From the IMG/VR virus record IMGVR_UViG_3300008451_000417, positions 1 through 36,732 of that record: a stretch of 36,732 bases of DNA. The stretch is one strand, 5' to 3'. The position numbers and the translations under genes were made by a program. The notes under the pieces were generated by a model. That model did no database searches. It was not told the DNA's origin and was given only the letters and a program-made list of their open reading frames with translations. This DNA comes from a virus. The first letter of the stretch is position 1. Each line of letters starts with the position of its first letter. Of this stretch, positions 3,841-10,284 are shown piece by piece.

Positions 3841-4151
3841 TATAAATCTCCTTTTAATTGACAATTCTGACGATCTACTTCCTGATTCCATCTAATGGAC
3901 CTTTCTCTAGCTGTGCAATATCCAATAGGTCCCTTAAAACCACAACCGCAAACTATTTGAGAATCCATTATCCATGACTCTCCACAGGTGTTATATTGAA
4001 CTCTACCTGATTTATACAAAAGCGATTCATGATTATGACAAACAGGGCATCGTTTCAAATCTTCAGGTTCGGGGAATGTAGGGGGGAGAGGTCTTGTCCA
4101 CACATTATCATCGGTCTTCTGGGCGAAAAAGCCTAGTAGTTTTCCAATCAT
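3831..4151 (-). CDS. Zinc-ribbon protein, Lar-like (106 aa)
   Basis: Probable zinc-binding protein. It has R-C-P-V-C-H (about residues 34-39), then I-V-C-G-C-G-F-K-G-P (about 67-76), then W-N-Q-E-V. This order (CPxC, second CxCG with G-P, ending in W-N) resembles the restriction-alleviation protein Lar and many Lar-like phage proteins. In family knowledge Lar modulates type I restriction, but most relatives are untested. The start overlaps the upstream gene's stop by 4 nt (ATGA). The N-terminal 30 residues (GKLLGFFAQK) are extra relative to Lar. Anti-restriction activity is a hypothesis only. Confidence 0.6.
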   Translation of the reverse strand: MIGKLLGFFAQKTDDNVWTRPLPPTFPEPEDLKRCPVCHNHESLLYKSGRVQYNTCGESWIMDSQIVCGCGFKGPIGYCTARERSIRWNQEVDRQNCQLKGDLYWI

Positions 4152-4318
4152 CGATTTATCCTATACTTATAACAAAGTTTAACCCCATTACGCTTGGCAA
4201 ATGCATACACATTAGGGGTGGTACATCCGAAATAGGTGGATAATTGCTTTGCGGTAAACTCCTTTCGAATGAGTTCTCTCATTATGGTCAGATTAATTTT
4301 TGGTATGTTAGAACGCAT
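4148..4318 (-). CDS. Small HTH-like protein (56 aa)
   Basis: Short gene supported by overlaps at both ends: ATGA with the downstream zinc-ribbon gene and TAATG with the upstream 30-residue ORF. Residues about 12-45 read as a helix-turn-helix: IMRELIRKEFTAKQLSTYFG followed by C-T-T-P-N-V-Y-A-F-A-K-R-N-G. It has a basic C-terminus. A likely DNA-binding protein or remnant of one; target unknown. It is distinct from the HTH protein at 2441. Confidence 0.6.
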   Translation of the reverse strand: MRSNIPKINLTIMRELIRKEFTAKQLSTYFGCTTPNVYAFAKRNGVKLCYKYRINR

Positions 4319-8707: not shown

Positions 8708-8799
8708 TTGTGAAATCCCTTTCGATTAAAAACTATATTTATTCTAAGACTAATAAGTGTCACCTATTCCAATCGTTCCCGTGTTTCAGTGACTAACGA

Positions 8800-8829
8800 A
8801 TTATATCACCAATTACTGTCATCCGTCAA
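8800..8829 (-). promoter_or_regulatory. Leftward early promoter
   Basis: On the minus strand TTGACG (8829-8824), 18 nt, then TATAAT (8805-8800) with TG immediately upstream (extended -10). It is near consensus for sigma70 and placed about 90 nt before the first early gene. A TCAGTGA heptamer at 8786-8792 overlaps the expected transcription start and could be an operator. Confidence 0.75.
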
Positions 8830-8900: not shown

Positions 8901-9271
8901 AAGTTCCACAAAGTTCCACAAAGTACACCGTGTTTTACATATGTAAAAATACAAAATACAGTAAATAGGTCATATAATTTACTTAAAGTGGCGTAGACTC
9001 TGTGATACCATATATTAATACCTTGTGGAATGTGTGGATTCTACCCTCGAAAGTTGACCAATTTTTACCCTGATTTTTGACCCAAAAAAACCCCTGATTT
9101 TCGTGGCGATTGTGGCACTTTGTCAAAAAAACCACTGAAATAGGCACAAAGTTCCACAAAGTCCACCACTTCTGACTATTCGGACACACGGTAGTTATCC
9201 ACAGGGCAAAAAAACGCGTTGTTTTTGTGTCACCCTGTGGATAACTCATAAAAATATGTGGACTTTGTGGA
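8901..9271. repeat. TTCCACAAAGT repeats (iteron-like)
   Basis: TTCCACAAAGT occurs at 8904-8914 and, sharing one base, at 8914-8924, then at 9152-9162. The inverse core ACTTTGTGGA lies at 9262-9271, and related CACAAAGT, GGCACTTTGT and CCTTGTGGA forms occur between. Phased repeats on both strands around DnaA boxes are typical of replication-initiator binding. Confidence 0.6.
9193..9246. other. Candidate replication origin: inverted DnaA boxes
   Basis: AGTTATCCACAGGG (9193-9206) and CCCTGTGGATAACT (9233-9246) form a perfect 14-bp inverted repeat. Each arm contains TTATCCACA, the strong DnaA box. The 26-nt spacer is A/T runs around ACGCGT and can form an inner imperfect stem. Position between divergent operons and next to iteron-like repeats supports an origin. 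No phage initiator gene is identified. Confidence 0.6.
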
Positions 9272-9344: not shown

Positions 9345-9398
9345 TGTATCATGGGCCATAATACCAATCGTTTGACACTAATAATGGCCCATGATACA
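9345..9398. promoter_or_regulatory. 15-bp inverted repeat around the late promoter (operator)
   Basis: TGTATCATGGGCCAT (9345-9359) and ATGGCCCATGATACA (9384-9398) are perfect reverse complements with a 24-nt spacer. The spacer contains the -35 box and the right arm runs into the -10 box. A protein binding both arms would cover the promoter, so this is a likely operator or activator site. Confidence 0.6.
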
Positions 9399-9400
9399 AT
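9372..9400 (+). promoter_or_regulatory. Rightward late promoter
   Basis: TTGACA (9372-9377), 17 nt, then TACAAT (9395-9400) with TG upstream as an extended -10. It is nearly consensus and points to the terminase-to-lysis operon starting at 9661, leaving a leader of about 250 nt. Confidence 0.75.
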
Positions 9401-9517
9401 GAGTTAGTCAGTGAGTAATGACATGAAATCCCGTGACTCACTGACACCTTCACTACCTATTGACCCAATTGAATCACCAAGCCCTATTGACTAACTAACT
9501 CACTAGGTGATAGCCTC

Positions 9518-9609
9518 ACTGAGTCATTTGAGTGCATGGGGAGGGGGTAGGGCCGACGCAAAAGGTGATTGCACTGGCTTAGATACCTCAGTAAATTTTT
9601 TTATTTTTT
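9518..9609 (+). terminator. Possible leader attenuator or small RNA end
   Basis: In the late leader, ACTGAG (9518-9523) can pair with CTCAGT (9587-9592), and inside it AGTGCA (9531-9536) with TGCACT (9570-9575). The outer stem is followed by T7-A-T6 (9596-9609). Stems are short, but the nested layout plus T-tract suggests premature termination that would release an RNA of roughly 200 nt. Confidence 0.35.
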
Positions 9610-9660
9610 GACCCTAGTGACCTAATTTTAAACAATCGTCATTAACCAACCAAAACCACT

Positions 9661-10284
9661 ATGAACCATCCCCCCGCTTACTCATTACCATCATTACCCC
9701 CAATAACCACCGCATCCTCTATTACACCTAAGTGGAATATTAAATCGATAGATATCCCCCTATCCACTCCTGTTCCAATACCTGAGTGGTTACATCCAAC
9801 CCCACCTCCTATACCTGCCAACCTCCAACTTACTAAACTTAAAAATGAAATAATGGAAACGCAATTTGACTCTTCATTCGAAAGGGTCCTAGACCAATTG
9901 GCAGAGGGTAAATCCCTTAAGACTATCTTTGAAGATGACCCCCGTGAATTCAAAGAATCTAAATTTATTAAATGGGTCTTGAAAGATCCCACTCGTAAGG
10001 AAGCGTATCATGAAGCGCTTGAAATAGGGGCTGAGATGATTGCTGCTGAGATGATTGAGATATCAGATGGAACTGACTCCATGGAAGACGTGCAGCGTTC
10101 CACACTCCGCATTAACACTCGCAAGTGGTTACTAGGGATATGGAACAAGAAACGTTATGGTGAGATTAAACAGATTGAGATGAATGGGGTTATTAGTATT
10201 ACCAATGCCCTTAAAGAGGCCAGAGAACGGGTCACGATAGACGCGTCGTATAAGGAGTTAGATGATGCAGAAACCGATATATAG
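9661..10284 (+). CDS. terS: Terminase small subunit, Sf6 type (207 aa)
   Basis: DNA-recognition subunit of the packaging motor. The C-terminal two-thirds match the Sf6-type small terminase: a helical N-domain (L-A-E-G-K-S-L-K-T-I-F), then W-V-L-K-D-P, then A-E-M-I-A-A-E-M-I-E-I-S-D-G-T, then the signature R-I-N-T-R-K-W-L-L-G-I-W-N-K-K-R-Y-G. The first 64 residues are proline-rich and lie outside the family. An internal ATG at 9853 would remove them, but neither start has a clear ribosome site. It overlaps the large subunit by 23 nt. Confidence 0.85.
   Translation: MNHPPAYSLPSLPPITTASSITPKWNIKSIDIPLSTPVPIPEWLHPTPPPIPANLQLTKLKNEIMETQFDSSFERVLDQLAEGKSLKTIFEDDPREFKESKFIKWVLKDPTRKEAYHEALEIGAEMIAAEMIEISDGTDSMEDVQRSTLRINTRKWLLGIWNKKRYGEIKQIEMNGVISITNALKEARERVTIDASYKELDDAETDI

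Follow-up and report, generated by a model that had tools for sequence, protein, structure and literature searches.

A Palindrome Pair at a Predicted Late Promoter of a P22-like Phage Appears to Be a Rapidly Changing Form of a Widespread Phage Early/Late Switch

Closest Described Systems

By its behaviour, the closest known system to the locus described here is the p4 switch of phage phi29, although defining features of that switch are not found here. In phi29, the early protein p4 acts at inverted-repeat sites near the early promoters A2c and A2b and the late promoter A3 and governs the late promoter (PMC3100819). Each p4 site is one repeat (consensus CTTTTT-15-AAAATG) in which about 15 bp separate the arms, and A3 has a poor -35 element and needs p4 (PMC3100819). 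The window, that is, the whole 36,732-bp stretch of DNA that was analysed, resembles this system in bearing paired inverted sites at a rightward promoter, P_R, and a divergent promoter, P_L, at 8829, with presumed early and late roles; in addition, the late -35 elements of its relatives are often poor, as in A3. In contrast, the sites in the window read TATCATGGGCCATAATA and do not follow the p4 consensus, while the -35 of P_R is perfect and one site lies on the -10 element, an arrangement that would suit repression rather than activation. Moreover, p4 is not an HTH protein but adopts a distinct fold.

The operators of the lambdoid regulators CI and Cro are 17-bp near-palindromes that begin with TATC, lie over a sigma-70 promoter, and are bound by dimers on one face of the DNA. 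Likewise, the window carries 17-bp dyads (7/8 and 6/8 pairs) that begin with TATC and overlap a promoter, at a spacing that allows dimers on a single face. Unlike the lambdoid operators, there are two sites instead of three, they occur at P_R only, without a copy at the divergent P_L 600 bp away, and neither a CI or Cro homologue nor an integrase was found among the window proteins scanned. A further comparison is offered by DSL-LC05 (OR003940.1), a metagenome-assembled phage, and the aquatic P22-like podoviruses of its type (PMC10611076), which have in common with the window the TerS, TerL, and portal families, the gap, a palindrome at the late promoter, and a leftward HTH gene. These relatives carry 4–9 counted copies of their repeat unit across the gap, whereas the window has two; their promoter lies 3' of a G-rich then T-rich (G/T) element, between it and terS, whereas P_R lies 5' of it; and the window differs in its palindrome unit, ATGGSCCAT, and in that no homologue of the repressor RepC was found.

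Genome Organization

The window corresponds to an entire IMG/VR virus record and comes from an uncultivated phage. Its PrimPol gene reads in frame across the junction 36732/1, so the record is probably a circularly permuted and apparently complete genome. The genome is P22-like, with a P22-like portal, P22-type head and tail genes, and an Sf6-like TerS, and it encodes a replication set of its own composed of a DNA polymerase, SSB, exonuclease, helicase, and PrimPol. Gene direction divides it into four blocks, namely the rightward PrimPol block, leftward small genes of unknown function (3.1–8.7 kb), the rightward terS and structural genes (9.66–29.8 kb), and a leftward block of replication genes. 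The locus studied is situated in a 953-bp gap with the leftward small genes on one side and, on the other, terS (9661–10284, plus strand; Sf6_terminase PF20901), the first gene 3' of P_R.

An Inverted Repeat Overlapping a Predicted Promoter

The left arm of the repeat, TGTATCATGGGCCAT (9345–9359, plus strand), and the right arm, ATGGCCCATGATACA (9384–9398, the identical 15-mer on the minus strand), show perfect complementarity over 15 bp and are separated by a 24-bp spacer. This is the longest perfect inverted repeat in the genome (loops of up to 60 bp), followed by a 14-bp repeat made of DnaA boxes at 9193–9246, and it is beyond chance: the longest inverted repeat did not exceed 11 bp in Markov simulations of the whole genome (n = 5) or 12 bp in simulations of the 953-bp gap (n = 300), compared with the 15 bp observed. 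No further copies of the 15-mer were found in the genome with up to two mismatches allowed. Each of the two longest repeats of the genome, at 9193–9246 and 9345–9398, spans exactly 54 bp, and 152 bp separate their starts, which may be a coincidence.

P_R (TTGACA-17-TACAAT with an extended -10, TG; 9372–9400, plus strand) is predicted to transcribe terS together with the structural genes, and its position suggests that it drives the entire late operon. The first-pass annotation had placed this promoter in the spacer and right arm of a perfect 15-bp inverted repeat, and the coordinates were confirmed: TTGACA (9372–9377), a 6/6 match to the -35 consensus, lies within the spacer, and TACAAT (9395–9400) has its first four bases in the right arm and its last two outside it. 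Promoter calls were made as consensus matches, and no promoter of the genome other than P_R and P_L reaches 11/12 with an extended -10 TG. When repeat and promoter were placed at random in the gap, they overlapped in 8.7% of cases, and in the observed register in 1.7%; on account of these figures, an association of the two beyond chance is suggestive, not proven. The same range (1.7–8.7%, given that both lie in the gap), together with the absence of sequence conservation in relatives, speaks for a neutral or decaying repeat with no regulatory function. We consider this extremely unlikely, the least probable of the explanations weighed here, as a perfect 15-bp repeat stands far above the simulations and it is retained, in a compact genome, at one of the two strongest promoters.

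A role of the repeat as a DNA or RNA structure, such as a cruciform or a single-strand hairpin, was also considered, and the segment 9330–9560, as single-stranded DNA, folded better than 200 of 200 shuffles (z -3.5). We judge such a role very unlikely, since a 24-base loop is unfavourable for cruciforms, the repeat lies 5' of the predicted start and outside the late RNA, an Rfam search returned no family at or near its threshold, and a hairpin needs no palindromic arms. A simple terminator was rejected because no T-run follows the repeat. Positions 9407–9416 pair perfectly with 9436–9445; the 10-bp stem starts where the late RNA is predicted to start and is a possible 5' stem-loop. Sites of the P2 Ogr type read TGT-N12-ACA near -55; this candidate was rejected as well, the left arm reading TGT-N12-AAT and the -35 being consensus.

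The divergent, leftward promoter P_L (TTGACG-18-TATAAT with TG; 8800–8829, minus strand) is followed by the box GTTAGTCACTGA (8786–8797). A start-site box, AGTTAGTCAGTGAGT (9402–9416, plus strand), is common to P_R and P_L, and the two promoters, 600 bp apart, have in common the 23-mer TGATAYAATNNGTTAGTCASTGA (9392–9414 on the plus strand and 8808–8786 on the minus strand), which extends from the -10 through the start site and had no match in IMG/VR. Because of this shared sequence, a common regulator, separate from the repeat, may act on both promoters.

Two Operator-like Near-Palindromes

The arms of the repeat are themselves near-palindromic (TATcATGGgCCATaATA, 7/8 pairs). The first operator-like near-palindrome, TATCATGGGCCATAATA (9347–9363; 7/8 pairs), is centred at about -53, a short distance 5' of the -35, and the second, AATAATGGCCCATGATA (9380–9396; 6/8 pairs), at about -20, where it overlaps the promoter spacer and the -10; both values assume a start near 9407, 7 bases past the -10. 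The centres of these 17-bp elements are 33 bp apart, approximately three helical turns. Equally symmetric 19-bp stretches occur at 0.5% of positions, and copies of the near-palindrome were found nowhere else in the genome, P_L included. Given that each arm is near-palindromic in its own right, two separate operators would be a better reading than one protein on two half-sites, and the inverted repeat would arise from a single operator present twice in opposite orientation. The earlier proposal that a protein bound to both arms acts as a switch is thereby retained in part: a predicted site does lie on the probable late promoter, and relatives likewise have a palindrome at the promoter directly 5' of terS, but the arms would be two operators and not the half-sites of one.

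Other Elements of the Gap

The second long inverted repeat, AGTTATCCACAGGG/CCCTGTGGATAACT (9193–9246), is composed of two inverted DnaA-box consensus sites. The segment 8897–9277 is origin-like, with two inverted perfect DnaA boxes and TGTGGA pairs at 9–10 bp spacing; among the relatives, L056, L091, and L121 have one AGTTATCCACAG each in the same gap. The G/T element (9538–9610, plus strand) is located directly 5' of terS, is recognisable in relatives, and is a possible packaging site (cos or pac). Even phages that are related very distantly have a discernible version (for example, GGGGGGTGGGGGGCC...GGAGGTGTCAGAAGAAATTTTTTATTTTTT; L102, L106, and L109 are among these loci), and two contigs of the same species as the window (L003 and L004) both start inside it, at 9590. 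Repeats of the GTTAGT type are also present in the gap, while a further repeat, D10 (CCAATCGTT), was judged to be due to chance.

Such a setting raises the alternative that the inverted repeat at P_R is part of an origin of replication or of a region for packaging, as a site for an initiator or TerS, with the promoter either coincidental or supplying primer RNA or transcriptional activation. The inverted DnaA boxes, the iteron-like TGTGGA pairs, the G/T element, and the GTTAGT-type repeats would fit this alternative, as would the equal length of the DnaA-box and P_R repeats (54 bp) and the restriction of the relatives' arrays mostly to this region. We nevertheless regard it as unlikely, because only two palindrome copies exist and both lie on the promoter, unlike iteron arrays; the TerS N-termini look alike in relatives whose motifs differ; and in relatives the array motif itself is used at the promoter.

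Comparison with Related Phages

None of the relatives carries the arms or encloses a promoter in a repeat of this kind. The nearest relatives covering the region show 62% TerL identity, and the same-species contigs begin 3' of the repeat. In IMG/VR, the 15-mer gave 35 matches, all single copies and none doubled, which were taken as chance on a rough estimate from the size of the collection. The paired-palindrome pattern had two matches, a microvirus-like contig and a tandem repeat, both rejected as unrelated on inspection. The gene nearest upstream had one partial match in IMG/VR (55%; L158), without such a promoter box, and a search with TerL in genome_contigs yielded two fragments and nothing more. 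The first-pass annotation had named free variation of the arms between relatives as grounds against its own proposal; by that measure, the lack of conservation counts against it. This is tempered by the presence in relatives of a different palindrome, similarly placed, alongside a diverged regulator.

In relatives, lineage-specific repeats occupy the same gap and are mostly restricted to that spot in the genomes checked. At 14 of 41 loci, compared with 13 of 612 coding control windows, another copy of the array unit lies in the interval from the G/T element to terS, where a sigma-70-like promoter can be read. The centres of the upstream sites lie 8–11, 19–22, or 31 bp 5' of the start of the -35, i.e., one helical turn apart, and follow a period of 10.5 bp (R 0.84, n = 16 distinct promoters; these comparisons use metagenomic contigs of shared ancestry, so p-values overstate independence). 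Helical phasing with the -35 is expected from contact with RNA polymerase. The upstream site of the window, at -17 from the -35 start, is about 3 bp off the phase of the relatives (-9, -20, or -31). The near relatives L046 and L047 resemble the window in placement, with sites at -19 (11/11) and +17 (7/11) versus -17 (17/17) and +16 (15/17) in the window, the second site of these relatives being weak and its TGATACA doubling as promoter sequence. Overall, the sequence is not conserved, and the arrangement appears to be partly shared with distant relatives. As a separate observation, the arrays 5' of terS in L056, L089, L090, L091, and L121 consist of a pair 9 bp apart, followed in most of them after about 117 bp by another pair and, after about 104 bp more, by one lone unit; this geometry is largely retained while the unit varies (ATTGTCCACA, ATGACTAACA, ATGACCCACA).

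Candidate Binding Protein

The leftward operon of DSL-LC05 encodes a protein annotated as 'repressor protein C' (RepC), and a homologue is present in most of those relatives that match in TerS type and extend over the leftward genes. A RepC-like HTH protein was seen in the leftward operon of L005, L007, L014, L021, L032, L046, L047, L067, L096, and L161. A copy of the palindrome at the promoter was found in 10 of 12 relatives with RepC versus 1 of 20 without it (Fisher 1e-5, a value overstated by the kinship of the relatives). Additionally, the recognition helix and the repeat unit vary together, VYTLRKW or VFTLRKW corresponding to ACCCASTGGGT and KSALYAW to ACACAATGTGA; the DSL-LC05 RepC with ACCCACTGGGT and the L046 protein with ACACAATGTGA are presumed cognate pairs. 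The RepC profile gave weak matches to proteins of the Cro/C1 type, among them HigA and a phage C protein.

An HMM search of the window, covering ORFs of at least 35 aa, gave no match to RepC, and no Cro/C1-type regulator was recognised among the window proteins scanned. This, together with a site that is unrepeated in the genome, would be compatible with operators for a host regulator that links late expression to the state of the host. We hold this to be distinctly improbable, as the relatives encode a candidate regulator of their own and carry different palindromes, which better suits phage-encoded proteins. Two HTH proteins had been put forward earlier as candidates. The protein at 2441 has HTH matches under curated cut-offs, belongs to the PrimPol operon, and had no homologues in 20 related records or in annotated phages. 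The 56-aa HTH-like protein at 4148 (4148–4318, minus strand) is encoded in the leftward operon, as RepC is, and weakly resembles the RepC profile, short of recognisable homology; it is a positional candidate only for the operator-binding protein. Structure models of the 2441 and 4148 proteins were three-helix and HTH-like (pLDDT 79 and 76, respectively), and Foldseek searches with both gave a best E of about 0.6, so a family was not assigned.

Proposed Early/Late Switch

Taken as a whole, the palindrome pair at P_R appears to be a rapidly changing form of an early/late switch that is common among phages. With a probability of roughly 0.5, the repeat represents paired operators through which one dimeric phage DNA-binding protein controls the rightward, late promoter P_R. 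The regulator would probably be a repressor: with a site over the -10 of a near-consensus promoter, repression is the simplest reading, the upstream site would add cooperativity, and a promoter so close to consensus would need to be silenced early. Both sites would be bound cooperatively by an HTH protein from the leftward operon, possibly that encoded at 4148. Early in infection, this protein would block RNA polymerase at the promoter, and the late operon would open once replicated operators outnumber the protein or the protein is removed. For the relatives, a weak -35 combined with an upstream site in helical phase points to activation, and the window may have reversed the sign or may use both modes.

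A broader and more tentative proposal, which we think possible but would not favour, is that a large group of uncultivated P22-like podoviruses share an early/late switch in which a leftward HTH protein recognises palindromes in the gap and at the terS promoter, in phase with the polymerase. Protein and palindrome would change together while the placement of the sites is kept, and the window would be an extreme two-site form in which a site on the -10 turns activation into repression. If true, a large and barely studied group of aquatic phages without a recognised late activator would have a late-gene switch that can be tested, and its naturally matched operators and recognition helices could be used to study how a phage regulator shifts its DNA specificity.
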